NCBI GenBank assembly: GCA_020912385.1
Contig: CP087209.1
Location: forward strand, 806,001 to 870,000
Direction of reading: 5' to 3'
Origin: Neofusicoccum parvum
Lineage: Eukaryota; Ascomycota; Dothideomycetes; Botryosphaeriales; Botryosphaeriaceae
DNA length: 64,000 bases
Positions 39,384 through 63,235 of the stretch are shown in pieces. Numbering within the stretch: position 1 is the first letter of the stretch; the number at the start of each line of letters is the position of its first letter. The notes under the pieces were generated by a model. The model was not told where the DNA came from. It ran no database searches and saw only the letters and a program-made list of their open reading frames with translations. The translations under genes were made by a program, and so were the position numbers.

Positions 39384-39941
39384 TCAATGTGCATGACCTA
39401 ACGACCGGCGGTGAAGAAACTGTAGACTCTGCAACGGCGTTGGAAATATGAGAGCCCTCCATGGCCGAACGTTGTCCATTCGAGATGTGTTGCACAGCGA
39501 CCCAGGACCGATGAGGCGGGAGACAGGAATGGCCCATAGGAGGACAGGGGCCGGAGTGGCTACGGTTGTACCGGAGTGAGCTACAGGCGGACCTCGCACA
39601 GCTGACGCACCTGTAACCCTGGCGCCCACACCCCTCTCGAGGTCCTGTTCTTCAGAATCGTCAGTTCCATGCATGACGCTGAGATGGAAGGATCTACCCG
39701 GCGAGGCGTGCTTCCGAGCTCTCCATATGTGCCGCAATTTCTTGCGGAAAATGTACCCGGCGCAGGGTAGAACGATGGTGATGAGGAGGGATATCAGGGC
39801 AAGAAGTGCTTCCTTGGACCACCCTGAAGTCTCGGAGGACTTGTCAGAACGGGGGGAAATTGAGGGTGTCGTAGAGGTTCCTGGCCTGGTCAGTATATTG
39901 TGTGAGATCGGTTCTCGGCTGCGGTTGCCATCAATCACCAT
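39384..39941 (-). CDS. WSKEA family membrane protein, paralogue A
   Basis: This is the first of four same-strand paralogues. I do not recognise the family. After a Ser/Thr/Pro-rich N-terminus comes SGWSKEALLALISLLITIVL, one predicted transmembrane helix with a central Pro, then the basic RKKLRHIWRARK. By the positive-inside rule this places the C-terminus in the cytosol. The alignment with B, C and D predicts a 48-nt phase-1 intron at 39650-39697 (GTAGAT...CTGAAG), joining SP to EQDLERG. It is a multiple of three, so the unspliced frame also reads through. The spliced length from the ATG at 39941 is 169 residues. The start is uncertain: the sequence ACTGACCAG/GCCAG just inside it looks like an intron end, so a short upstream exon is possible. 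The C-terminal SPY...W motif of the other copies is not recognisable in frame. Confidence 0.7.
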   Translation of the reverse strand: MVIDGNRSREPISHNILTRPGTSTTPSISPRSDKSSETSGWSKEALLALISLLITIVLPCAGYIFRKKLRHIWRARKHASPGRSFHLSVMHGTDDSEEQDLERGVGARVTGASAVRGPPVAHSGTTVATPAPVLLWAIPVSRLIGPGSLCNTSRMDNVRPWRALIFPTPLQSLQFLHRRSLGHAH

Positions 39942-40057
39942 TTACTGAACTCAACTCCATGATAAAATGTACGGCAGAAAATGGTACAGGGTGTGACATG
40001 CGGCAACAAGCGACAGAACGGCCTGATGAAAGACGCATGTTAAGGAGCGAGGCTCTT

Positions 40058-40066
40058 GTATATATG
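40058..40066 (-). promoter_or_regulatory. TATA-like box of paralogue A
   Basis: CATATATAC on the minus strand lies about 117 bp before the ATG at 39941. The other three paralogues have comparable elements at 90-190 bp. Confidence 0.4.
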
Positions 40067-40205
40067 TGTTTAACTATGAAGACCCGGGGTTGCCCGGCTG
40101 GCCATCTACACTCCACTTTGGTAATTATGGCTGTGCTGAGCAGCGCGCCCGTACCACTAAGACGTGACGGGTAATCAGCAACTATTACAGGCGACCGATC
40201 TCCTC

Positions 40206-40255
40206 CGTCGCTGCTACCAATCAAGGCCTGCGTCGCTGCTGCCAATCGAGGCCGG
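40206..40255 (+). repeat. 25-bp imperfect tandem duplication
   Basis: Two adjacent 25-bp copies, each starting CGTCGCTGCT and containing CCAATC, differ at three positions, mostly A/G changes. Confidence 0.75.
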
Positions 40256-41074
40256 CCATGCTGGCGTTTGCTGCAACCCTTGTGCAGCGAACAAGTTTTC
40301 GCGCCCGCGGATTCGCTGCCCACCACCCCGCTACCTGTATATGCCCTCAGTGGCACTCCGTGGCCCCCGCCCGCCACCGGACATCGCTTCACATCCACAG
40401 GCACTGCGCCTTGCAAGGCCGCACACAGGGTTCTCGGGTCGTAGTTGAGCCGCGTGCAGACACGCCTGCTCTTGCCGCCCCAGTCCTTCTCGCTGGCTGC
40501 TGCAAAGCCATCGCGCACAGTGGTAAGTATTCTGTGCAAGGCTGTCGTTGTTCAACTTTGCAGAATTCAACGCGAGCGCATATTCTCAGTCTCCTCGAAT
40601 TCATCCTGATTTCGTTGTTTGAGTGTTGCCTAATGCTCAACAAGCATTTTCCTTGACAAAGTCCAAGCTGGACCGGCGGCTCGGCTCGGATCGCTCGGCC
40701 AACTAACCGCTTTAGTCCACCGCTACCATTGCATGCGGATTTGGAGAGCATTATAGGCGATGTGGCTCATTCCACTTCGGCTTCTGCCACGAATGAGTGG
40801 ATTTGAGGTGTTGGGTCCTTGTTTCTGATCTACATTTACAACCTCAGCGTCTACGACGCTACCTCCGATCTCCGCCAAACCAAATGCAACCAGGTTATCC
40901 AGCCACGCATCCCCAAGTTTTGTTCATCGAGACATTGCAAGAGCTACAAAGCTCTCTCAAGCTACATGGTTCAGTATCTGTAGAACTCTAGAGACTAGAG
41001 AGGTGCGGTGTACCGGTTTTCATTAGTGCAAAGCCAGTACCAAGGGCCAGACGAGCGGTCAGAAGTGCGGTCGC

Positions 41075-41083
41075 ATATTTAAA
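41075..41083 (+). promoter_or_regulatory. TATA-like box of the 41136 gene
   Basis: ATATTTAAA lies about 53 bp before the ATG, followed by a short A/C-rich leader. Confidence 0.45.
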
Positions 41084-41135
41084 GCACGGAATTCATCATG
41101 CACAAGAACTACATTCTATCGGCACCTCTGTCATC

Positions 41136-42413
41136 ATGGCGTATTCGGATGCATCAGACATCGAAGGCGAAGAATATGGCACGAGCTATCACGCCTCCAG
41201 TTCCCCTACACCTGCGCCAGAAACGGAGACCGAACAGATCCGCGAGATCCTAAAAGACGTCCCCACAATGGAGTGCCCAGAGAGTGTGAGAACAAAACAA
41301 CCATATGCCATGGGAACATGGTCATTCGAGCGCAGTGTCTTGGACCCACGCTGCATCACGATAGAAGACGACGTCAAGACCGAGGATTTTTGGGAGCATT
41401 TTGGCACCTCCGCGCCCATGTGCGCATCAGGCGGATTTGAGGCTTATAAAATGATACCAGCTCTCAAAGACACGAGCATATGGGTTCCGACAAACGACAA
41501 CTCCATCGCGTCCGTGCGTAACGAATAAGCTGCACTGCGCTACCACCTCCACAACGAAAGCGAGCACGAAGCCAAAGCATTCGAACTCTTATTACGGGCC
41601 GAGAGATGCCATCCAGGAGTCTTGCCGACGACGCAACATACCATTTCAGAGCGGATGATCAAGTTCAGTATGAAGCCGCAGCGCAATGAAGCCTGGAAGC
41701 CCCCACCAGTTCTCCAGACCAGTGACGCCGACGCTACACCGGACTTCTCGTTCGACGTCAACCCCAGCTGCACGTACTGGCTGTCCCTACGAACGTTTGA
41801 CCCAAAGCACTGGAGCAAGATCACGGATTATGTCTACGCAGCCCAAGATAGGATGATCTGCCCTTATTTGACGGCCGAGATCAGGCAAAACGCCACAGAC
41901 GCAGACGGGACTGCATCTCTGGAAGCCATGCACCGTATGGCCTCATCCGCAGCAATGGCTGTATACAACAGATACAAGCTCCGGGAAAACTTGATGCCTG
42001 CCACATCCTACAACGGCGAAAGGTCATGGGCGGCTGAAGACCGTGCGGACATGAAGCACTATGGCCTACTCATGGCAGGCGTCGAGTACAGTTTCTGGGT
42101 GATTGAAGCTAAAGCCAAGTATTTAGGCGGTACCACCGCGGGCTGGGAAGGTTGCTCGGCGAGGCGTTTGGTCCGAGGGAGGCTTGACATCGAGCCACAA
42201 GTCAAGATATTTGCGGAGTGGCTGAACGAGATACACCGTTGGGGTCTCACCGTCCACGCTCCTGAAGTTCAATATGACATCAACGTTTGTATTGGCCTTT
42301 TGAATGCAGTGCGGCCGGAAAAGAAGCGGAAGAGAGAGGGCGTCAGTGGTGCTTATGACGATGGCGGGCCTCAAAGACACCGTGTTCCGGATGATCATCA
42401 GCATGGGTTTTAA
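41136..42413 (+). CDS. Uncharacterised fungal protein, nuclease-like fold suspected; interrupted by an internal stop or a 60-nt intron
   Basis: The reading frame from 41136 continues to 42413 except for one TAA at 41526-41528. Coding-like sequence continues on both sides in the same frame (NDNSIASVRNE, then AALRYHLHNESEHEAKAFEL). Either a 60-nt intron at 41518-41577 (GTAACG...AAAG, phase-compatible but with no good branch point) removes the stop, or the gene is a young pseudogene. The body has a pattern I recall from a large unnamed fungal family: CPYLTAEIRQ, AVYNRYKL, HYGLLMAGVEYSFWVIEA, GWEGCSARRL and WLNEIHRWGLTVHAPEV. The usual form of the first motif is CP[FY]LT[VI]EFK, which looks like the E-x-K of a PD-(D/E)XK-type core; here it reads E-I-R. 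The tail is Lys/Arg-rich (RPEKKRKRE), a possible nuclear signal. The nuclease idea is inference only. Confidence 0.6.
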
Positions 42414-42700
42414 AATTATTCTTGTGTTCAGATTGCTTATAGAGAGTCCAGTCACCCGATGGCATATTGTAGACTACTGCTACATGCTGAAGTGTACTGG
42501 CATTAGCAGTGGAAGGGTATGTGACTGGGCCAAGTGTGCTTCTGTACTGGCCAAGATGACTGCACAGACTAGAGTCTTGCCCAGGTCCTCGACTCGGCAG
42601 CATTTAGAAAAAAAATCCTTTGATTTAATATGTCTAGGAGCCATCCCAATGCGACGATCGGCAAGGCTGTACATCCGCAGACTGCCCAACCTGTGCAAGC

Positions 42701-43105
42701 TCAGTCTTCTTGTTGTACATTTTGTAGCCGCCACAAGTCCTCCCAGTCAGATGTTTCGATTCGGGACACGTCGTAGGGTGACTGATATGAACAAAGGTCG
42801 ATAAGAGAAATGCCTCCAGTATCACTTGTGGTTACTGCCTCGGCATCTTCCTCGACAGAAAGTCAGCTCAATGTGCACGCGACATATTTGCGATCAATGA
42901 TGAGAATGCACTGACCAGGTTGTTGCCGCCCGCGGCGTTTGGTCTTGGGGATATGGTGTCGGAAGACATATGCAGCAACCGGAACGAAAATCGATATGAA
43001 GAGACCAGTCAAAGTAAGAAGAGCTTCTTTAGACCATCCGGACGGTTCAGTGTTGAAGTTTCCGGGAGAAGGCTGAGAATTATTGCTGACCAAGGGTCTT
43101 TCCAT
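42701..43105 (-). CDS. WSKEA family membrane protein, paralogue B
   Basis: Exon 1 (42916-43105) encodes MERPLVSNNSQPSPGNFN, then SGWSKEALLTLTGLFISIF with Pro and a predicted transmembrane helix, then RHHIPKTKRRGRQQP. Exon 2 (42701-42834) encodes VTTSDTGGISLIDLCSYQ and SPYDVSRIETSDWEDLWRL and ends QQED. The total is 107 residues. The 81-nt phase-1 intron has donor GTCAGT, branch GAGCTGAC and acceptor GAGGCAG. The exon-2 tail closely matches paralogue C, which is why I accept an exon that lies outside any long open frame. The acceptor is displaced relative to the other copies, and the acidic block that should open exon 2 lies inside the intron. A further in-frame ATG at 43171 is possible, but the start at 43105 resembles that of C. 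The gene is convergent with the 41136 gene, with 287 bp between stops. Confidence 0.72.
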
Positions 43106-44240
43106 TGCGAGGGTTTCACCGAATACTGGGCAGTCTGGAGGTAATGATGAAGATACCGGAAGTGCATCCACTCTTGAAAGGCGACAGGCTGTAATTCATA
43201 TAGCTGCCCATGAAAGAATGATTCTCATCTCCAAAGGAGCGGGTACAGCGTGAAGCGCGATTTATACATACGGAGGGGCTGACATCGGACAGGGATGGTA
43301 CAACGGCACTCGCCTGCATACGATCAACCGGAGCTTTGCATATGGGATCAACCGCTGATTTGCGGCCGCTGCGCCGTACTTACAAGGATATGCGACCACA
43401 CTAGCGCCCTTTGCCTGCTGACGCCGCGCGCTTACTTTCATGATTAGTGACCTTTTGCATACTCACTACAAGATCCAGACATACTTCACGACGTCCACAA
43501 GCCACAACAGGGAGGGGCCGCTCCACAGCAACACGGCGTGCCTCAGATCATGAGTCCACTTTCGGCGATGTGCAGGTAAATAATCCGGGCCCCGCACCCC
43601 TCTTCGCGCTAGACCACGGAGGGTTGTCGTGTGGCCTTTGTCGAGCCTTGCAGGATTCTGCCGAGTTTTGCTGCGTTTTGCTGAGCCACCATCACCAAGC
43701 TGCGCGGCCGCCCGATCTTGCAACTTGCAGACAGTGAGTGCCATCCGTCAACTTCCGTAGTTATCGATTTTGGCCATGCCACCTGTCGAAAACTCTGCCA
43801 TGATACGAGCTATGGCATGTGTTATGGTAGTATGCACCCCGTCGCTCTCCTACGCAGTTGCTACATTGAAGTCTGTTAAACTCTTCTGTCTCCTTTGTTT
43901 AACATGAACTTGAATGATCAGACACGACATACTGGTCTGAGAAATCTTGAAGTCAATTTGCTAGCGAATTTGATGAATTCACCCAGGGACGAAAGAACAT
44001 CTGCGGCCCCCTTTCCGGAGCTCAGCTAACAAGACTGATGGGCAAAAACTCAAACTGGCATTCCATGTTGTGCCTTTCCTATATACTTCACGTCAAACGA
44101 ACAAAACCAAAACGTTGTTAAAACATCAACCTGCAATCCCCAGGGCGAGTTGAGGCGCCCTGAGCCCCTGCTGAGTCTACCAAGCTTATTTCAAGGCTCT
44201 CTAGAACTCCCGGAATCGTCTTCAGATCATCACAAGTTCT
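43106..44240. other. Intergenic region between paralogues B and C
   Basis: 1.1 kb holds the promoter of B and the 3' region of C. Short frames around 43450-43740 on both strands show no relation to the family. Nothing else is supported. Confidence 0.45.
43258..43269 (-). promoter_or_regulatory. TATA-like box of paralogue B
   Basis: TATGTATAAATC on the minus strand lies about 155 bp before the ATG at 43105. Confidence 0.45.
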
Positions 44241-44714
44241 TCACCTAGCCGAAATGTCCAGTGAAGTTACCGCTGCGGCAGCTGGTGGAAGGAACTGTGA
44301 GGGTTCCAGTCTGTGGCAACCATGACGCGTTCGCAGGCGGAAAAGCTCTTCCCAGTCGGATGTCTCTACTTGAGAGGCAGCATAAGGAGATTCGAAGTCC
44401 CAGAGGTGGATGGAGTCCAAGACGTGGGGGTCGGGAGTGACGGTGACAGCGGCATTGGCGGAAGTAGCCGCTTCGATATCTCGGCCTCCGGAGGATTTCA
44501 ATGTCAGTGCCTGCCTTGAGGCTCTCCGACTGCGGAGCTCACCGGGATGGAGGTTCTCGAAAGACGTGCGGATGCCGTGCATCTTGTGCCGGACTATCAA
44601 CGCAACGCAGGGCAGAAGGACTGAAACGAGGAGGGTGACCAAGGCGATGAGAGCTTCTTTGGACCATCCCGAGAGCTCGTTGTTCGAGTCCCGTGTAGGA
44701 TTTTGTTCCCTCAT
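44241..44714 (-). CDS. WSKEA family membrane protein, paralogue C
   Basis: The start MREQNPTRDSNNEL at 44714 is followed directly by SGWSKEALIALVTLLVSVLL, then PC and one predicted transmembrane helix, then RHKMHGIRTSFENLHP. Paralogue alignment predicts a 57-nt phase-1 intron at 44486-44542 (GTGAGC, branch GCACTGAC, acceptor CGGAG). Splicing joins HPG to RDIEAATSANAAVTV, and exon 2 continues LDSIHLWDFE, SPYAASQVETSDWEELFRL and an Ala-rich tail. The spliced product is 138 residues. The intron is a multiple of three and open, so the unspliced form is also readable. The frame could extend upstream to 44894, but that part has no counterpart in B or D. The C-terminal acidic motif with Trp is the best preserved with B, and the basic-acidic charge pattern is the same. 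Confidence 0.75.
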   Translation of the reverse strand: MREQNPTRDSNNELSGWSKEALIALVTLLVSVLLPCVALIVRHKMHGIRTSFENLHPGELRSRRASRQALTLKSSGGRDIEAATSANAAVTVTPDPHVLDSIHLWDFESPYAASQVETSDWEELFRLRTRHGCHRLEPSQFLPPAAAAVTSLDISAR

Positions 44715-45710
44715 GCTCGCAGCTGCCACTTCGCATTGACGGGTGCGCCTGTGACTAAGATGGACTCTCAGGTGGCAGATCGAGAATGGTCCCTCGGAAC
44801 ATGGAGTAGGCAAAGTAAAGATCTGCAAGCTGTAGTAACTTGGTATGAAGAATGAACGCCATGAAGACGAATGATGTACCGAGGCCAGCAACACGTGGGG
44901 TATTTAAAGGAGAGCAACCCAGCCCGGAGCCTCAATGAGATTGACCGGTAGCATGCGTAGGGCTGCGGCGTTGGACGAATGCCGTTGTAGCACTAAACGA
45001 CACACCCTCGTGCAGGTGTGACTCGCAGCACGGCCTCCCCCAGATGCCTCGGTCGAGAGCGCGTTGAAATGTGCTCTGCACGACGTAATCCTGAAACTGA
45101 AGGTCCACAACAGCGGGTCACAGTTCTGAAGAATTGGTTGGCAGGATTCCTGAACGGGTTAGGTGGTGACGCTGGCAGGGTTACAGGATATATTGTGCAG
45201 GGGTAGTCTTGGGGGAGTCGCCGCGGAAGAGGAGGCCTGAACTCGGCGAGGTCGACGTTCGGGGGGACAATGTGCAACGATACAGAGCGTAGTCCCGCAT
45301 CTGAGCGCGGACCCCATGGGTACATAAGACAGACTTACGATTAGTGTCGAAATTTTCGCAGAGCACAGAAATTGACCTGCCGCCGAGGCCGCGCCCATGT
45401 CCCTCGCACCTTCTTCGCCGCCCGCTACAATAATCTTTTCTGCGTACAATCCAACAAGCTCGCATCTAAAACAGCTGCTTGGTTTTGCTTCACGACTTTG
45501 GCGAATTGATTATGGTTGAGCGGGAGGAGCGGTTGGCTGAGGATCCGCCGGGACACATGCACAGCTCGCCCGGAGTCGATGTTCTGGTATCATGGAATGC
45601 TCTTGTATGTTTGAAATGGCATGCTGCCTTGTGGGCCACGCTCCATACTGCTTTCCTCAGTCTCTGCCGGCGTCCTCTACAACCGTGATCGTCCTTTGCT
45701 TTTCCACACT
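44715..45710. other. Intergenic region between paralogues C and D
   Basis: About 1 kb with the promoter of C and the 3' region of D. The overlapping frames at 45159-45465 do not resemble any family member. Confidence 0.45.
44901..44910 (-). promoter_or_regulatory. TATA-like box of paralogue C
   Basis: CCTTTAAATA on the minus strand lies about 187 bp before the ATG at 44714. A CACGTG core is adjacent at 44893-44898. Confidence 0.4.
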
Positions 45711-46102
45711 TCACATGATTCGGTTCTGCGCTGCAATCACAGTTTCCACGTGATGCTGCAATAAAGAGAGCTCCTCCCACTCAAATCTTTCCGACCGGGA
45801 GATCTCATAGGGTGATTCGCAAAACGTTAACCTGACGAACAAGGCTTCATTCTGTATGACGTTGTTGTTTGCCTCGAGGTCGTTTCCTGAGGCAGGTCAG
45901 CCTTGGGCCTGAGGAAAGCTTTGAAGAAGCCATGCTGCTCCTCACTTTGCTGCGAGCTCAGACTTGAGTCTGCTGTAAACCTTGCTGAGATTAGGTGTAT
46001 TGCGGAGGTGCGGCGTAGAGTGTATGACAGGGCGGGAACGAGTATCATGAAGAAGAGGCCTATCAGTGCTATTGTGGCTTCGGCGGACCAAGCTGACGGC
46101 AT
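45711..46102 (-). CDS. WSKEA family membrane protein, paralogue D (divergent)
   Basis: Exon 1 (45946-46102) starts MPSAWSAEATIALIGLFFM, continues with a Pro-containing transmembrane helix and ends LRRTSAIHLISARF...SSQQ. Exon 2 (45711-45886) encodes RNDLEANNNVIQNEALFVRL, then SPYEISRSERFEWEELSLL and ends QNRIM. The 59-nt intron (GTGAGG, branch GGCTGAC, acceptor CCTCAG) is phase 1, as in A and C, and its length shifts frame, so exon 2 is hidden in another frame from exon 1. The RNDLEA and SPY..S..E...WEEL blocks align with exon 2 of A, C and B, which strongly supports the model. The product is 110 residues. It is the most divergent copy: W-S-A-E instead of W-S-K-E, and almost no N-terminal extension before the motif. 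Confidence 0.72.
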
Positions 46103-46200: not shown

Positions 46201-46531
46201 GGTAAGCGCTAGGCAGAAACGAGCCAAAACATGGTAAGACGGCCGAGTGGGGGAAAGCGGGGCTGTGAGGAGGCGCAGCAGGTCTCGTACTCCCGATTGG
46301 CTGTTTGCCAGGTTTGAAAGGTACCGAACAGCGCCATGTCCGTGCCAATACCTTCGACCTGGCTAGTAAAGTGAAAGAATTGCCTCAGGCGTTGTGTTGG
46401 TAGTTCCCGGCGGACGTCAATGTCTTAAACTGGCGCGGGATGGCCCGATGATGGCCGGAGATGTCTTGTCTTCCCGCTTTCCACGCTCCGATTGTTCCTA
46501 CTATTATGAGAGAGTAACCCGCATCTCGTAT

Positions 46532-46605
46532 TAAGCCCAAAGTGGTAGTACCTCCGACCTCTTTTTCGCTCGGAGGGGGTCGGAGGTACTGCCACTTTGG
46601 GCTTA
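46532..46605. repeat. Near-perfect inverted repeat (28-bp arms, 18-nt loop)
   Basis: The left arm at 46532-46559 starts TAAGCCCAAAGTGG and ends CCTCCGACC. The right arm at 46578-46605 is its reverse complement with one mismatch, which would be a G.T pair in RNA. The 18-nt loop contains a T-run. Imperfect complementarity continues outward (GAGTAACCCG on the left, CGGGGCTACCC on the right). It could be a small non-autonomous element, a terminator-like RNA hairpin or a recombination product; nothing in the sequence decides. Confidence 0.85.
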
Positions 46606-47138
46606 CTACGGGGCTACCCGTCCGTCATCTCCCACTGCCACTGTGCTGCAAACTTGGCTTGGGTCGAACTTGCCAACGTATGACGTCGCACTATACTAAT
46701 GCGTGCTTAAAGACCTTATGTGTGATAGTAGCAAGAAAGCATCACTCCCGGCGGTTGTTTGTGTTGGATTTTGAACATGTCACTATCACGTCTATCCAAC
46801 CGATGGTCTACTTCAGACTGAAAATTATCATTCAAAGGATGTATGACGAAAAGATTTCCATAGGGATAGCCTACGAAAGCGGAGTGAGAGACCAGACTCC
46901 CACGTACCCTATCCACGAAGCCGGCGTGGAAACAATTGCAACAGCTCCACACATGAGTAGTTGAGGTAACCGCCCAGACGCATATGTGCTGTAAAAGAAA
47001 CACCAAACCCACTCGGATGAATGCTTCAATTGGCCATGAAGCTATGCGCGTCTTGCATTACTTTCCAAATCGACCCCCATACTTTATCAACCTAACTTTA
47101 GAAACTCTCATTAATGTAGTATCAGTGTCTCAGATACC

Positions 47139-49842: not shown

Positions 49843-51888
49843 TCAAGCAGAAACCAAATCACACTGCTCCGGAATCCCGTACTCCTCCCTGATCTTTCCA
49901 AACGCCTCGCAGACATGATCCAACACCTTCTCCAGCAACGGATCGTCGACGTTCGTGCTGCCATACTCGACCGCCTCACGCTTGCCCCACCTGATGGCGA
50001 GATGGAGCCCGTCCTGCACGCCCTGCACCATCCAGCGCTCCTTGTGCGCCTCTTGGATGACCAAGGAGTCGTAGCGGTAATAGGGTATCCACTTGCCGTC
50101 CGCAAACCGGCCGGGCCCACGGTGGGCGCATCCGACGGCGTAGTGGCGGCGGCCCAGCCAGCCGTCGCGGGCGCCGGCGTACCTGCGCGGAGGGAAGAAG
50201 AAGAGCTTGTCGGAGAAGGCGGGGTGGAGCTCCCACAGCTGCTCGAAGTAGACGTTCTGCAGGTGCGGGAGGTAGAGCCGCATCATGCGGAAGACGGAGG
50301 TCCAACTCTCGTCGGTGAGGTAGACCTTCGTGAGCCCGACTTCCTCGAGGCTGTGGCGGTGGGAGTTGAAGAAGTGGGCTAGGACCGGGACGCTGAGTAG
50401 CGTGTTGTGTAGGTGGAGTGCCTTGATGGTGGGAGGCAGGGCCCGCAGCACCTTGCGGACGAAGCCGATGGAGAACTCGTTGTCGGGTGCCGCCACGAGG
50501 TTGAACGACTCCAAGCTTGAAGCGGCAGAGAGGAGGCTGAGGAGAGCTTGCAATCCGTTCTCCTTGGTGAAGCCCTCCGGAGATTGGCTGCGGTGGATTC
50601 TGGAATTTGGGCCCTTATGCCGGCAGCTGCCCAGAGAAATCGCCAGATGGAGGTGCTTCAGCTGTGCCAATGTCGGTGCCAACTTGATGAGCATCGGCTG
50701 CGGAAGTTGGAGGGCCCAGACGCCGGCTTCCTCATTTGCAAACTTTCCAGGAGCCATTTGGACGGTGAGTTTGCGAAGTGGCATGGGATGAAAGGCTAGA
50801 GCCTGGAGGAGGCTGTTGAGTGTGGCTGCCATGGCCTCACAGCCGAATTCCTTCTTGCAAACCGCGAGATCTGGAGTGTCGAGGATGTTCATCTGTCCCA
50901 GACGTCTGCTGATCTTTCCGTCGCGAGGAGTGGTCTGGTAGAAGTAGTTGTGCCTCTTGTAAGCAAGCTCGTACTCCCCGATGGCGACCTCCTTGAGGTT
51001 AGGAAGATGGGCAAAAGCCTCCTGAAGGAGCTTCACATCCTCGTGGGCTGCCATCATCCATTCCTGCTCAACACACCCCTCGATCATCTTGGGGTGCTCC
51101 AGCTCGACCAGAGCATTTGTAGCGTTGCCGTACGCCTCAATACCGGTCTGATCCACCGGCTCCAAAAAGAGCTTGCCACACATGCCGACGAAGTCGCAGT
51201 CATCGCGCCAGCCCCGGAGCCCAGGGAGAGAGAGCTTCGCGATGTTGACATGCAAGATGGTGATGTTGGACGCGATGATCTCGCTCATTATGGTGCGGCT
51301 GAAGTCCTGGAGGCCGCGGTACGTCATGGAGATCTCCGCGATACCAGTCTGCGCCCACTTGCACTTGGGGAACTCGCGGCGGAACCACTCGATGAGGCTG
51401 ATGGAGAGACTCCTGCAAGTAAGGCGAAGATTCATGACGTCCTTGATACAGAGGCTCTCCTTCTCCAGGACCACGTCCTCGCGGCAGTTGATGACCAACG
51501 TGTAGTAGCGGTCAATGCCGTAGCGGGTCTCCTCGCGGTAGCAGGCGTTTCTTGGTCTGCCGCAGTTGAAACACCCACCTTCATCGGAGCTCGCTCCGAG
51601 ATCGCTACCGGTATCAAGGACCCAGAGCTGCTCTTGGCTGTCCTCGTAGTTCTCGTGGTTCTCTTCAACAAAATCCCCGCCGTCGTCATGGCTTTGAGTG
51701 CTCTCTTCTCCATCGTCTGTATCTCCGTCAACCCCATCATCTCCCCATCCATAGTCGGACTCGTCGGAAAACGGTTCAGAAGAAGAGCTGCTGTAGTAGC
51801 TTGGGGCAGCCTCCACCTCCGGGACGAAGGTGACCTTGCATATCACCTCGATGATATCTTCAGGCAACGTTGCGAGGCTCGCAGCCAT
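49843..51888 (-). CDS. F-box-like protein with leucine-rich C-terminal part
   Basis: This is a single-exon frame of 681 residues. The N-terminus MAASLATLPEDIIEVICKV resembles the first F-box helix (LP-x-[DE]-[IL]-[IL]). The second half of the F-box, LRLTCRSLSISLIEWFRR, comes only near residue 150, because a Ser/Asp/Glu-rich insert of about 100 residues containing a CFNCGRPRNAC Cys cluster lies between them. The rest has degenerate Leu-rich segments (LPNLKEVAIGEYEL, LAQLKHLHLAISL, LEEVGLTKVYLTDESW) typical of fungal F-box proteins that select substrates for SCF ubiquitin ligases. The last 100 residues contain Arg/Trp-rich sequence around RDGWLGRRHYAVGCAH. The SCF role is family inference. No intron is needed. 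Confidence 0.75.
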   Translation of the reverse strand: MAASLATLPEDIIEVICKVTFVPEVEAAPSYYSSSSSEPFSDESDYGWGDDGVDGDTDDGEESTQSHDDGGDFVEENHENYEDSQEQLWVLDTGSDLGASSDEGGCFNCGRPRNACYREETRYGIDRYYTLVINCREDVVLEKESLCIKDVMNLRLTCRSLSISLIEWFRREFPKCKWAQTGIAEISMTYRGLQDFSRTIMSEIIASNITILHVNIAKLSLPGLRGWRDDCDFVGMCGKLFLEPVDQTGIEAYGNATNALVELEHPKMIEGCVEQEWMMAAHEDVKLLQEAFAHLPNLKEVAIGEYELAYKRHNYFYQTTPRDGKISRRLGQMNILDTPDLAVCKKEFGCEAMAATLNSLLQALAFHPMPLRKLTVQMAPGKFANEEAGVWALQLPQPMLIKLAPTLAQLKHLHLAISLGSCRHKGPNSRIHRSQSPEGFTKENGLQALLSLLSAASSLESFNLVAAPDNEFSIGFVRKVLRALPPTIKALHLHNTLLSVPVLAHFFNSHRHSLEEVGLTKVYLTDESWTSVFRMMRLYLPHLQNVYFEQLWELHPAFSDKLFFFPPRRYAGARDGWLGRRHYAVGCAHRGPGRFADGKWIPYYRYDSLVIQEAHKERWMVQGVQDGLHLAIRWGKREAVEYGSTNVDDPLLEKVLDHVCEAFGKIREEYGIPEQCDLVSA

Positions 51889-52504
51889 GTTGAAAGGCAG
51901 TTGTGGTTTTAATGAAGAGTAAATGAGGCTGTGGTGGTGTTCGGCGTGACCGTATCGACGGAGCGGTAGTCTTGGTAGTTTCTGAAGAGGGGAGCATCTG
52001 TGGAAAGGACTTGGTTCAGAGTTAGAGTGTAGAAAAAAAAAACAGAAAGCTAGGACTTAATTTTATAAGCGGTAGAAGGAATGTTGGGAGAGAGAGCCGT
52101 GGTTGAAAGTGCAAGTTGGGATTTCTCAGGGTCCGGTCCAAGGCAACAGTGAACCATCAAGAGGCCAGGTTACCTGATGGAAGGAGATGCGCGATTTCAC
52201 AAGTTTGGAAGAACTTCAAATGGATGGAGAAAGGGGGCTGTGTGCCATTAAGCGAGTGTGGTGATTGCGGAGGAAGGCTCGATCGACTGCCGTTCTTGCG
52301 CATTTTTCTTTCGGCCGCCGCCCTTACCACATCTTGTGATCATCCTTACTTTCAGCCCCTTTCCATGTGTTTACAATCCGCTGGCTCGCATTTGCTAAAG
52401 ATTTTCACCTATGCTCTGCCATGCTCAAAGCCTTGAACGTAGGGTGCGTCATGTGAAGCGCCCAGGTCCCGGCCTCCTCTTTGTTTGGGAATCTCTTATG
52501 TGGT
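51889..52504. other. Intergenic region
   Basis: About 600 bp upstream of the F-box-like gene. An A-run at 52032-52040 and short frames only; no further feature. Confidence 0.4.
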
Positions 52505-52831
52505 TTACTCATCCTGGCTAACAATGATTTTGCTATAACATTTCCGATCCTCATCGTATGATGAAAGGTCCCAAGTTCTGACGTAGATCTCCCTGAAGTG
52601 AGGGAGTCGGCTGAAGCCGGTATTGAACATCTTGGGGTTCTCGCCAGTGGCGTTCATCCGCTCTTGGTCTGCGTATTCCTGGTAGTACTGAAGGTGCCTG
52701 AGCTCCCAAATGATCCGTTTGTTGTTCGCATCCTGCAGAGATGGGCCCTCCGGAGGTGCATCGACGGATGGGGTGACGGTATTTTTCATGGTGTCCTTGA
52801 AAGAGAGTAGGTTTTCTCTTCGGGGGTGGTC
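52505..52831 (-). pseudogene. Orphan 3' exon of an unidentified gene, probably a remnant
   Basis: Minus-strand sequence GCTGACCTTTACTACAG ends at 52832 and is a textbook branch point plus acceptor. It is followed by an open exon encoding DHPRRENLLSFKDTMKN, a Pro-rich turn, IIWELRHLQYYQEYADQER and FSRLPHFREIYVRTWDL, ending SQDE. The composition is protein-like and the LPHFREI segment recalls the Leu-rich part of fungal F-box-type proteins such as the one at 49843. Upstream, the minus-strand frame 52886-53350 does not look like the matching 5' exon, and no clear donor joins to it. The frame itself extends to an ATG at 52849, but the acceptor suggests that this ATG is intronic. I read it as the surviving 3' part of a decayed gene. 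Confidence 0.35.
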
Positions 52832-52849
52832 TGTAGTAAAGGTCAGCAT

Positions 52850-53828
52850 CGAATTCCAGTGGTGCAGAAGTTTAAACGGGAGTTCCTACATGAATAGAAG
52901 TATTGTAGCTACCAGAGGGTCAGAAAATGCGGTCGATATAGGGTAAAGGGTTCCGTCTTGCAGTCGGGAGAGGCGGGCGTTTAGTGGGTGGAAAACAGAA
53001 GGTGTAAAATTTTGATATCCGTTATATACGTGGTAGAACTGAACGTAGCAAAACCGAGCGTGACATGCTTTCGGCGACTGTTGGTGACTGTTTTCCCGTT
53101 CGAGGCACAAGTCTCCACATACTTTCACTAACTTGTGTAAGCCGTTTAAAATGGACTTTAGGCTGGGCTGGTATATGAGAATTTTACTGTATAATTGAAA
53201 TACGTGGTGTCGTTGCAATTTACCTACTGCCCACATGAGCCTTAGGTACACTGCCTCAAGACTGCCAAGGTTGCGGCGCGCTGAATTAGAGAGTGTACCA
53301 AGATGGTGTATCGCAAAACTCACTACACGATCACGGCAGGGCAACCGCATCTTTTGCTTATAAACTTAATGAAATATCTCCTGTCACGATCTCCAGAATG
53401 CCTCAAGAAGCAACATCTCCTCTAAATGTTGGAGCTTGTGATTGGTTTGGAGTAGCAATCATGAAAGGTCATGAGAAGCGTAATCAGACGTCGGGAAACA
53501 ATAAATGATGTGGTCATAGAGCGCGCAGAAGGATGACACAAACACTTCGGTTTTGTCTTTGGCCACAGATTGCTCAAAACTTAATGTCATCTCTTTGTAG
53601 TTCAATAATCGCGTCAGTTACTTGGAGACAGGGATTATAGATAATTACATTGGTTGGATGGACTGTTACCCTCTCTCAGAAGGTGCTTCCGACACAGCAT
53701 CTTGATCCTTTTTTGACTCCTGACCTAGTCGCTCATTAACCTCCTGCTCCTCTGAATCCTGCTCCTCAGATTGCTCTCTCTCCCGATGGCACTAAAGAGT
53801 CGCACTCATTATCCTCCTCCTCGTCATT
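52850..53828. other. Interval with no supported gene
   Basis: The sequence is more AT-rich than its neighbours. A 154-codon minus-strand frame (52886-53350) is open but carries no recognisable motif. The region may hold decayed 5' exons of the orphan exon. Confidence 0.35.
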
Positions 53829-55529
53829 CTAATCTACACGCCCCCCATCCTTATTCTCCACATTTTCTTCACCTTCATCTTCGGGTTCTTCCCACGGCAA
53901 CGACTCCTGCTCATTGCCCAGCCCCAACACTATAACCCTATCCGCAAACGGATTGATATCCGGATTCATCAGTTCCCCAATGGTCGAGTAGCACACCGCC
54001 GCCGGATCACTGCTCGAGTTCAAACTCCCGTTCCAGTACTCATTCCCAACATACGAATTCCCATCCCACGCCCAGCTCACCACCAACAGCTTCCCCTTCT
54101 CCCGCTTCCTGCACGGATCCGCCTGGGTGAACTTGACATCGATCACATTCTTCGCCGCGGCGGCCTCGACCGCCTGCTTCGTCTTGTCCGGCACGCCGCT
54201 GATCCAGCCGAACTCGACGGTAGCAATGTACTGCAAGTTCAGTGCGTCCAAGCTCTCCGCGAACGCCTCGATGAACCAGGTGTTCTGCGCCTTGTACTTG
54301 CGCCACACGCCGAGCCCGAGGCCCACAACATGCACGATTGCGTCCTTCCCGGCGGCCCTGGCGCGCGCCTCGGCCTCGAGCAGCAGGACGTCGAACGAGA
54401 CGCGCAGGCGGGCCTTGTACATGGCGACGTCGAAGGCGCCGTCGAGGGCGTAGGGGTCGGGGCGGGCGTCGAGGTCGACGCCGGGCAGCAGCCACTGCTG
54501 CACCAGGCGGCGCACGCCCGGGTCCATGCGGCCGCCGACGACGGCGTCGCCGCGCGCGGGCGGCGCGCAGATGACGGCCGAGTCGTGCTGGCCGTCGCGG
54601 TCGAAGCGCGGGCCCGCCAGCCCGACCATGACGCCGCGCGCCTGGTGGGCCACGCCGCCGCGCGCCGGCCTCCCGCAGTTGTTGCGGCTGCCCGAGTTGA
54701 TGAAGTGCGTGGGCGCCGAGGCGCCCAGCAGCGACGACAGCATGATCTCGTCGTAGGACAGGTACTCGGCCAGCGTGAGGTGCTTGTTCAGGTGCTGCGC
54801 TTCCGTGCCCACGCGGTCCCACTCCGCGTAGGCGGCGCCGATGTACTTGCCGTTGCGGAGGCGGGTGAAGTCGTTGCTCTGCAGGAAGCAGAGCGGCCGC
54901 TTCTCGATCATGCGTGTTGCCAGCGAAAGCCAGTTCATGTCCGCGTAGAGGGGTCGTTCGTAGCTCGACCCGTATATGCGCTTGTACTTGAGGAAGGTGT
55001 CGAGCAGCGCGGGCATGCGCTGGTGCAAGATCACCCGCGTCGACAGCGCATCTTGCTCGATCTGCTTGGCGGGGAACTTCTCGATGCGGTTTGTGTCCAC
55101 GTAAAACGTTCCTTTGAACTTGGAAGGCGTGAGGAAGTCCAGAGGCGCCGGCAGCTCGCCCGCTAATGGCGGGCGAGGCGGAAGCTCGATTGTATCGGGG
55201 TTTGGATGGAGGTCGGGGACGGCAGGGTTCAGAGTCTGCCCTTGGGCTTGCAGTCGATGTCGCAGCCCCTCTGAAGATCCTTCGAACAGATTGGTTGTTT
55301 GAACTTCTGGCGAGGCAGACGAGCGCCCCCTGCTCTGCGTCGGAAACATATTGGCTGCACACCGTCTCGTATGACGCTGGAGTTTGCAAGAATCCGACGA
55401 TGAAGCTGCGAGGTAAATTTTCTGTGAAAGACTATTGTTTGAGCAGGCGCGTGATATACACCGGCTTCGTAAAAGCGCCATTCTTTCTTTGTGCAAGACG
55501 GAACCGGGGGTCGACGACTGCCCACTCAC
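53829..55529 (-). CDS. DUF4804-like protein (macrodomain-like fold suspected)
   Basis: The open frame is 566 codons. The most likely start is downstream of 55529, either MALLRSRC or MFPTQSRGR, because the first 60 residues are not protein-like and GTGAGT next to the frame start looks like a splice donor. The core, from about residue 130, has YVDTNRIEKFPAKQ, PLYADMNWLSLATRM, YLSYDEIMLSSLLGASAPTH, FINSGSRNNCGRP, GVMVGLAGPRFDRDGQHDSA, MYKARLRVSFDVLLLEAEAR, VHVVGLGLGVWRKYKAQ, LLVVSWAWDGNSYVGNEYW and DPAAVCYSTIGELMNPDINP. I associate this order of blocks with DUF4804, a family found in fungi and in the Legionella effector MavL, described as an ADP-ribose-processing macrodomain-type protein. The activity is inferred from family memory. 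The C-terminal 30 residues are acidic. Confidence 0.7.
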   Translation of the reverse strand: MSGQSSTPGSVLHKERMALLRSRCISRACSNNSLSQKIYLAASSSDSCKLQRHTRRCAANMFPTQSRGRSSASPEVQTTNLFEGSSEGLRHRLQAQGQTLNPAVPDLHPNPDTIELPPRPPLAGELPAPLDFLTPSKFKGTFYVDTNRIEKFPAKQIEQDALSTRVILHQRMPALLDTFLKYKRIYGSSYERPLYADMNWLSLATRMIEKRPLCFLQSNDFTRLRNGKYIGAAYAEWDRVGTEAQHLNKHLTLAEYLSYDEIMLSSLLGASAPTHFINSGSRNNCGRPARGGVAHQARGVMVGLAGPRFDRDGQHDSAVICAPPARGDAVVGGRMDPGVRRLVQQWLLPGVDLDARPDPYALDGAFDVAMYKARLRVSFDVLLLEAEARARAAGKDAIVHVVGLGLGVWRKYKAQNTWFIEAFAESLDALNLQYIATVEFGWISGVPDKTKQAVEAAAAKNVIDVKFTQADPCRKREKGKLLVVSWAWDGNSYVGNEYWNGSLNSSSDPAAVCYSTIGELMNPDINPFADRVIVLGLGNEQESLPWEEPEDEGEENVENKDGGRVD

Positions 55530-56313
55530 CTGGTCTTTGAATCAGAATTTCCTGAGAACAACAGAGTGGCTGAGACCAAGGGATCAATCAGGCTTGGGGA
55601 ATGGTGCAGCTTTTGAGAAGGCGTGAATCGGGGCAGCCTTGCGTGCAGCCTTGCGTGCAGCCTTGCGTGGTTGCCTGGAGGGGTGACTCAGCCACACCAG
55701 CTTGACCGCTTCGCAGGAGCACTTCGCTGAGCCATTGATGCACTCAGCCACTTTCCCATCGGACAGCATGACTGCCAAGATGGCCAGTGCCGCGCGAATC
55801 TTGAATGCGGAAATGAACGAGACTCTTCAGACAAAGAAAATGGGCTGCCGGGTGAGATGAACAGAGGGTGGGACTCGTGCGCATCTCGAACATTTAGCTG
55901 ACAAAGTGTTCGGAAAGGGTTATACTGTATGAGGCTTAGGGTCATAGAGAGAGCGAGAGAGAGAGAAAGTGAATGCAACACCAAGAGGAGGTATCCTGCG
56001 ATGATGACGTCATATGCCATGCGGAACGCAGACCTCCTTCTAAGCCCACCAGCAACTCTCCATGCGTTGAAAGGCCAATTGGTAAGTAGAGAGCCATGCT
56101 GCAAACCGTCACTCAAGGCTGAGAACCTCGGGGCAGCCACATTCACATGAGGTTACATCTGGTGGACTTCCCATCTTGGCAACCCCGCCTCGCCTGCATC
56201 TGCATCTGCACGTCAACAACACAGCTGCTTATCAGTAACTCCAACGGACCCAAATGAAAAATCTCCACCGCGAGTCTCTTCCCTCCCATCTAACCCTCCA
56301 GTTTTCGTGAACG
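55530..56313. other. Divergent intergenic region
   Basis: About 780 bp between the DUF4804-like gene and the transporter. It includes a 12-nt tandem repeat, a GA-rich run near 55948-55970 and the CAA-rich leader before the ATG at 56314. Confidence 0.45.
55633..55668 (+). repeat. 12-nt tandem repeat, three copies
   Basis: Three perfect direct copies of GCAGCCTTGCGT, about 100 bp beyond the start side of the DUF4804-like frame. Confidence 0.9.
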
Positions 56314-60900: not shown

Positions 60901-61355
60901 GACCAGGATGGCGTACCGCGCGGCGTGGGCGAGCGAGGGCAGGTCTGGCGCCGCTTAGGCCGTGTGCCCTGCGTCTGATCGCACGCCACACGCTAATTTC
61001 CCACGCCGGCCAGCGACGGCGCAGCCGCTGATGACCTGGAGCATGGACGCCGACCAGGGGCTCCCGAAGCTCCATGCTCGCTCGCTCTCCACAGAAAATC
61101 TCTGTCCGGCCAATTCTGGGCCTGCCGAGGGCTGCCACCCTCCAGCAGCCACCTGCTAGCGAGATCAAGTCTCCGGCTGATTCCTAATTAGTTGCGAGCT
61201 ATGGCCGCCCTTATCGCCGCCAGCTCCGTATATATTTGGAGTCCATGAGGCCTCCTCCCTCTTCTCCATCCGCACCTCCACACGTCCACTCTCCGTCCAG
61301 CTCATCTTCCGTCTCTGAGCCAATTTCTCTCTCCAAACAATCTCTCCACGTCACA
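57976..61355. other. Gene-free interval
   Basis: There is no supportable gene in 3.4 kb. The section 60.0-61.1 kb is GC-rich and keeps frames of 150-320 codons open on both strands, all with Arg/Ala-rich non-protein-like translations. The right end holds the TATA box and leader of the gene at 61356. Confidence 0.45.
61228..61238 (+). promoter_or_regulatory. TATA box of the 61356 gene
   Basis: GTATATATTTG lies about 120 bp before the ATG. The C/T-rich leader ends CGTCACAATG, a good fungal start context. This fits a strongly or inducibly expressed small gene. Confidence 0.55.
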
Positions 61356-61646
61356 ATGTCTAAGAGCTTCGACAACGCCGCCTTCGAGGCCGAGAAGGCC
61401 GCCATCACCTCCTACGAGGAGAACTGGGACTCTTGGGACGGCCCCGTCTGGGACTGGCGCTCCACCAACAAGCCCGAGGTTGCTGCCAACAAGTCTCTCG
61501 AGGCTCTGAAGCGCCCCACCCTCCTCCGCAACAACTCGTCCTGCACCTCCATCAACACCGTCTCTTCTGAGACCTCCGAGTGGCACGCCTCCGCCACCCC
61601 CGCCTGCACCAGGTGCGGCCACGGCAACGCCTCTGTCCACGTTTAA
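61356..61646 (+). CDS. Small CTRCGHG-tail protein, paralogue 1
   Basis: This is an intronless gene for 96 residues, MSKSFDNAAF to GHGNASVHV. Blocks in order: EAEKAAITSYEENWDSWDGP near 11-32, VWDWRSTNKPEVAANKSLE, KRPTLLRNNSSCTSINTVSS and the C-terminal CTRCGHGNASVHV. The Cys-x-x-Cys-Gly-His tail could bind a metal but is too short for a standard zinc finger. No signal peptide or transmembrane helix. The second copy on the opposite strand at 62816-63235 shares every block, so the start and frame are well supported. I do not recognise the family. Codon use is strongly biased to C-ending codons, which suggests high expression. Confidence 0.8.
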   Translation: MSKSFDNAAFEAEKAAITSYEENWDSWDGPVWDWRSTNKPEVAANKSLEALKRPTLLRNNSSCTSINTVSSETSEWHASATPACTRCGHGNASVHV

Positions 61647-62815: not shown

Positions 62816-63235
62816 TTAGAGGTGGCTGGTGGCGCCTCCGTGGCCGCATCTCGTGCACAGGTGGGTGGACGAGTTGGTCCAGAGGCTGGCGCCGCTGGCG
62901 GCCGAGGCGACCGAGTTGGTGCTGGAGCTGCGGCTCAGCTCCGGGCGAGGCGGTGCCAGGTTGGCGGTGTTGCTTTCCTTCTTCTGTTGCGACGCGGGCT
63001 TGTTGGTTTCCCGCCAGGGCCAGATGGGGCCGTCCCAGCGGTCCTACGCCCACGAACGTTAGCGGACTGCTTGTGGCATGTTGCGCGCTGGTTCGATGCT
63101 TACCCAACCGTCCTCGTAGGAGGTGATGGCGGCCTTCTCGGCTTCCCAGGCGGCGCGGGCGTTCAGGGCGTCCATTTCAAAGCGCTGGGCGCGGCAGTGG
63201 CCTTCGGCAGTGCAGCAGTGTGGTGTGCTGGTCAT
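62816..63235 (-). CDS. Small CTRCGHG-tail protein, paralogue 2
   Basis: Exon 1 is 63104-63235 and exon 2 is 62816-63043, giving 119 residues. The 60-nt intron (GTAAGC...GGCGTAG, with CGCTAACG near its end) joins TSYEDGW to DRWDGPIWPWRETNKP. Exon 1 starts MTSTPHCCTAEGHCRAQ, a Cys/His-rich extension absent from paralogue 1, and then carries AAWEAEKAAITSYEDGW. Exon 2 continues with a Lys/Asn linker, a Ser-rich block with SSSTNSVAS, and ends LCTRCGHGGATSHL. The splice falls inside the most conserved block, so the pairing with paralogue 1 confirms it. An upstream in-frame ATG at 63283 is less likely. Function unknown. Confidence 0.8.

Follow-up and report, generated by a model that had tools for sequence, protein, structure and literature searches.

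The signal-anchored proteins of the endoplasmic reticulum or mitochondrial outer membrane, exemplified by the Tom20/Tom70-type topology, carry a helix at the N-terminus with basic residues after it, and their C-terminal part is cytosolic. The reverse order is found in Atg43 of the fission yeast Schizosaccharomyces pombe, which is described as a mitophagy receptor, a transmembrane (TM) protein with a cytosolic Atg8-interacting motif (AIM) (PMC7609059). Here, a family of small genes from Neofusicoccum parvum is compared with both. Four of its members, A to D, form an array on the minus strand of the window, by which the whole analysed stretch of 64,000 nucleotides is meant (C4:806001-870000; contig CP087209.1, in a genome of 44.0 Mb and 18 contigs). 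Their products are read, with a probability of about one half, as small signal-anchored membrane proteins that would display a cytosolic linear docking peptide. They would share with the Tom20/Tom70 type the N-terminal helix, the basic residues after it and a cytosolic C-terminal part, whereas no known receptor domain was found in the family, and its very hydrophobic TM segment would favour the secretory pathway.

Translation of the gene strand in three frames confirmed A, B, C and D at the coordinates and in the frames that an earlier note, made from the sequence alone, had assigned to them (Table 1). The four align without gaps over the core W-S-x-E-A-x3-L-x2-L-x6-P-x6-R; the gap-free alignment claimed by that note stood, whereas its spacing of x(5) between the second Leu and the Pro had to be corrected to x(6). 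In leave-one-out analysis, exon 1 of all four genes and exon 2 of B, C and D were recovered by models from which they had been held out (expectation values, E, in Table 1); exon 2 of gene A gave no match to the exon-2 models. Models built from the window genes only were scanned against 190 kb of fetched sequence, which was picked mostly via exon-1 queries, with one exon-2 match (1472 kb) also steering the choice, and which leaves the locus at 1554 kb outside. The exon-1 model detected eight further loci with E from 2e-11 to 0.13, the first unrelated match following at 0.18; weak matches were those at 1474 kb (0.028) and 1472 kb (0.13), the latter not being separated from unrelated sequence by this model. 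The exon-2 model (B, C and D) detected five further loci with E from 6e-10 to 3e-4, the next match having an E of 2.4, and the best match among 20 column-shuffled exon-2 models reached 0.06. All five sit 144-249 bases behind a same-strand exon-1 match, so that two separately built models agree. Of the two results, that for exon 2 is the cleaner, although not fully choice-free, because the stretch had been chosen mainly by exon-1 queries.

Genome-wide peptide searches with several members and two consensus peptides, which score the best candidates only and therefore give lower bounds, returned at least 13 exon-1 loci, namely the four of the window, eight others on C4 and one on C17 (hereafter named by their position in kb on C4 or as C17), and at least 14 family loci once a lone exon 2 at 1314 kb is included. 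With nine further exon-1 loci in the same genome, a lack of homologues beyond the window, which the earlier note would have taken as a refutation, does not apply. The C4 copies span about 0.78 Mb (778-1554 kb), and tandem copies are not independent. The consensus exon-1 query matched 13 places in the whole genome, every one a family locus (E 4.5e-13 to 0.0026); nine matches were obtained with the consensus exon-2 query (E 3.4e-9 to 0.06), eight of which are preceded by an exon 1 (B, C, D, 778, 780, 1189, 1472 and 1474 kb). At 1314 kb, inspection by eye of the 901 bases fetched showed no anchor exon; the tail exon there (C4:1314528-1314626, plus strand; L069) is 68% identical over 31 residues to the tail at 1474 kb. 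An extra candidate at C14:1212 kb (E 0.61) was dropped, as no tail motif was seen by eye on the matching strand.

Pairwise differences at codon positions 1, 2 and 3 amounted to 0.454, 0.279 and 0.649 in the 13 exon-1 cores and to 0.295, 0.332 and 0.670 in eight exon-2 motifs, and codons for the same residue were changed in 557 of 806 comparisons (69%) in exon 1 and 168 of 247 (68%) in exon 2. Third positions are therefore near saturation and second positions constrained, as is expected if an old family of proteins has been kept under purifying selection, which agrees with the view of the earlier note that the copies are diverged and do not stem from a recent assembly duplication. The family is real and, judged by these substitution patterns, old and under protein-level constraint. 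No significant Pfam-A match was found for the six members scanned (A to D, 780 and 778 kb) of the 14 loci, the best E being 0.07, with one member each for two families, and a profile of the same six gave no significant match in the PDB (best E 0.23). As far as these two databases tell, the family is thus unnamed, as had been supposed, and a literature search found no description of it, which is no proof of absence.

Gene models were drawn for 12 loci, that is, all exon-1 loci but 1554 kb, the lone exon 2 at 1314 kb also being unmodelled. In all 12, the TM segment (mean Kyte-Doolittle hydropathy 2.0-3.1) is followed by 17 residues with a net charge of +2 to +6, the up to 15 residues before the W carrying -2 to +1, so that the long hydrophobic segment and the positive C-terminal flank of a signal anchor are present throughout, in line with the TM helix and basic residues proposed earlier. 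Because of this charge bias, an N-out/C-in topology is predicted by the positive-inside rule; the helix with its Pro would insert in this orientation, and the tail peptide probably faces the cell interior. The P and the R following it are kept in 13 of 13 exon-1 cores. Such strong conservation of the TM segment would also suit a larger membrane complex of which these proteins are small subunits with a regulatory or assembly role; the WSxEA-TM-Pro helix would then pack on a multi-pass partner and the tail serve as a secondary clamp, and three short copies indeed retain anchor and junction, not the tail. This explanation is considered unlikely, since no gene other than the family itself is common to several family loci, and hence no linked partner gene was found, among the open reading frames (ORFs) of at least 50 amino acids compared all against all in the 190 kb (1314 and 1554 kb excluded).

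The sequence ahead of the anchor bears on a further proposal. In the drawn models of D and 778 kb, about four residues precede the W, which indicates that members do not generally have an ectodomain; with translation starting at the first ATG, 128 residues precede the core at 780 kb and 56 at 1474 kb. This variable N-terminal length, together with the clustering of diverged paralogues and a MavL-like gene lying 7.7 kb away from D, could be taken to indicate accessory, self/non-self or effector-type receptors. The accessory or self/non-self setting, which the earlier note had raised, found no support: D and 778 kb leave no room for an ectodomain in their drawn models, the neighbours include core genes such as APC1 and eIF2A, and no HET/NLR domain was present among 21 window ORFs scanned with Pfam. 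A receptor role of this kind is considered highly improbable.

The second conserved element is the tail. The acidic Trp motif reported by the earlier note for B, C and D was recovered as SPYx2Sx2Ex3WE[DE]L in these three genes. Gene A has a weak counterpart only, and in a MAFFT alignment its S, S, W, L and L match the other tails only with gaps inserted. The wider pattern, [ST]P[YF][DE]x[SA]...[DE]Wx[ED][LMI]xxL, applies to B, C and D and weakly to A. Across eight aligned copies of the 20-residue peptide, P, W and L at +6 are invariant, D or E stands directly before W, and position +3 is L, M or I. An acidic Trp motif behind a membrane anchor is compatible with a docking role. We infer that the tail would be disordered over most of its length, perhaps with a short helix at the W, and would act as a linear docking peptide that brings a single conserved partner from the cytosol to a site on an endomembrane or the plasma membrane. 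The copies would have diverged as they were duplicated locally, and the three that stop short of the motif could then be anchors without a hook, either dominant-negative or decayed.

The same tail invites comparison with selective autophagy, in which [DE]Wx[ED][LI] would be an AIM or LC3-interacting region (LIR) and the proteins membrane-anchored adaptors linking a carrier membrane to the phagophore. The simpler [DE]Wxx[LIV] occurs in eight of the 14 loci, or eight of the 11 in which any tail motif is present (the 1314 and 1554 kb tails included), and B, C and D fit the published xLIR expression, which is stated to have a probability of 1.5e-3 in random sequence and is permissive in this sense (PMC5119064). 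Helical LIRs and DWE-type half-LIRs have been described as well (PMC7615515). Atg43 has in common with the family a TM helix and, towards the cytosol, a short linear motif (helix and orientation being predicted here); however, its AIM is N-terminal and its TM segment C-terminal, no sequence relation between the two is shown, and the family, unlike Atg43, is multi-copy and clustered, with a longer motif that fits xLIR only partly. The xLIR expression fits only three of the 11 tail-bearing loci and fails at 780, 778, 1472, 1474, 1189, 1314 and 1554 kb and in A; position 4 is G or R in seven of these eight, and +3 is M at 1472 kb and A at 1554 kb. The conserved element, which extends from -12 (SP[YF]) as far as +6 (L), moreover greatly exceeds a LIR in length. 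An autophagy adaptor is accordingly seen as an unlikely identity for these proteins. A more elaborate version, clustered multi-copy membrane autophagy adaptors in which the anchor and short N-terminus would mark different membranes or cargoes, the shared helical Trp hook would reach the same cytosolic machinery and the tail-less copies would be natural antagonists, is a speculative and improbable one.

Several observations weigh against small signal-anchored proteins with a docking peptide. The tail motif is missing from three of the 13 exon-1 loci (883 kb, 920 kb and C17), where the D-x-[ED] junction is kept and the reading frame ends soon after, with a TAA at that place at 883 kb, and it is weak in A and at 1554 kb. 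The core itself varies, WS being replaced at 1474 kb and the W of WS at 1554 kb (where a weak gap-free tail counterpart was seen by eye), and E-A altered at 1472, 1474 and 1189 kb and on C17. AlphaFold2, run on exon 2 of C with B and D as the alignment, returned mostly coil; a helix at 42-54 over the W motif would speak for the proposed tail, but the mean predicted local distance difference test score of 55.7 is low confidence. The amphipathic moment of the tail was not significant (profile p 0.45; none of eight single copies below 0.05), and an amphipathic-helix reading was set aside on this ground, leaving it as a weak AlphaFold2 hint. Introns and starts are predictions, and an ATG is missing from the drawn exon in four of the 12 models (1472, 1189, 883 and 920 kb), which could either have decayed or possess a further exon upstream. 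Together with the missing tails, the early exon-2 TAA at 883 kb and the lone exon 2 at 1314 kb, these ATG-less models would fit a small gene repeated in a lineage-specific way whose copies are decaying or have no function; the strong codon-position bias across old copies and the recovery of held-out copies, however, need a long-kept function, which makes such decay of the family as a whole improbable.

Anchor and tail are separated by a predicted intron. A GT...AG phase-1 intron can be drawn in each of the four window genes, and 14-22 nt ahead of its acceptor end stands a branch-like site, CT[AG]A[CT]. The earlier note had predicted such an intron in all four; splicing is needed only in B and D, because of the in-frame TGA and the frame change, respectively, whereas retention in A and C, where the intron is a multiple of three without a stop, would also yield a protein. 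Exon 2 then opens with E-Q-D-L-E in A, R-D-I-E-A in C and R-N-D-L-E-A in D, matching the x-D-[LI]-E start described before, to which B can be added as D-A-E-A if the acceptor GAGGAAG is used. Across the genome, all 12 models have the intron in phase 1, and nine of them carry D-x-[ED] at the junction (the exceptions being 778, 1189 and 1474 kb), an agreement that is not an independent test because donor and acceptor were picked to fit the frame.

Table 1. Predicted exons and introns of genes A to D in window coordinates, and further exon-1 loci of the family; held-out E is the leave-one-out value.
Feature	Position	Strand	Description	Held-out E
A exon 1	39698..39941	-	N-terminal stretch, WSKEA, TM helix with Pro, basic segment	1.2e-12
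A predicted intron	39650..39697	-	phase 1, 48 nt, multiple of 3, open frame, retention possible	
A exon 2	39384..39649	-	EQDLE start, degenerate tail SLCNTSRMDNVRPWRAL	
B exon 1	42916..43105	-	WSKEA, TM helix, basic segment	5.3e-8
B predicted intron	42847..42915	-	phase 1, 69 nt, in-frame TGA	
B exon 2	42701..42846	-	DAEA ... SPYDVSRIETSDWEDLWRLQ	1.6e-10
C exon 1	44543..44714	-	WSKEA, TM helix, basic segment	3.9e-10
C predicted intron	44486..44542	-	phase 1, 57 nt, multiple of 3, open frame	
C exon 2	44241..44485	-	RDIEA ... SPYAASQVETSDWEELFRLR	5.7e-8
D exon 1	45946..46102	-	start 4 residues ahead of WSAEA; TM helix, basic segment	1.2e-7
D predicted intron	45887..45945	-	phase 1, 59 nt, frame change	
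D exon 2	45711..45886	-	NDLEA ... SPYEISRSERFEWEELSLLQ	1.3e-4
Exon-1 loci outside the window	C4: 778, 780, 883, 920, 1189, 1472, 1474, 1554 kb; C17: 402 kb			

The surroundings of the array were characterised by a Pfam scan of window ORFs, in which APC1 was found to adjoin gene A, eIF2A and a P450 also being present in the window. The MavL-like gene (53829-55541, minus strand) has a strong match to the Pfam family 'ADP-ribosylhydrolase MavL-like' (6e-84), which is named after a bacterial effector, and shows no visible tie to the array. Upstream of gene D, at 46527-46610, lies a near-perfect inverted repeat with 33-nt arms, 94% complementary, and an 18-nt loop, which from its sequence may be a hairpin or an element resembling a miniature inverted-repeat transposable element; a 22-nt piece of its arm had no second copy in the window at up to three mismatches. 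Between A and B, an ORF at 40992-42410 (plus strand) has a weak DUF7924 match in its second part (E 5e-4, below the cut-off) and an in-frame stop at 41526-41528, suggesting an intron or a decayed gene. Two opposed ORFs, at 61188-61643 (plus) and 62819-63043 (minus), have a DxWDGPxWxWRxTNKP segment in common (46% identity over 76 amino acids), and the adjacent minus-strand ORFs at 49846-52056 and 52508-52885, the first without a Pfam match, are weakly alike (E 2e-4).

Together, a coherent gene family of at least 14 loci, with a definable and mutable motif and no Pfam or PDB relative found, was delineated from raw sequence, and annotation easily misses or mis-models small two-exon genes of this type. 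Should the tail bind a conserved partner, the array would provide natural variants, full, degenerate and tail-less, for tests of membrane recruitment.

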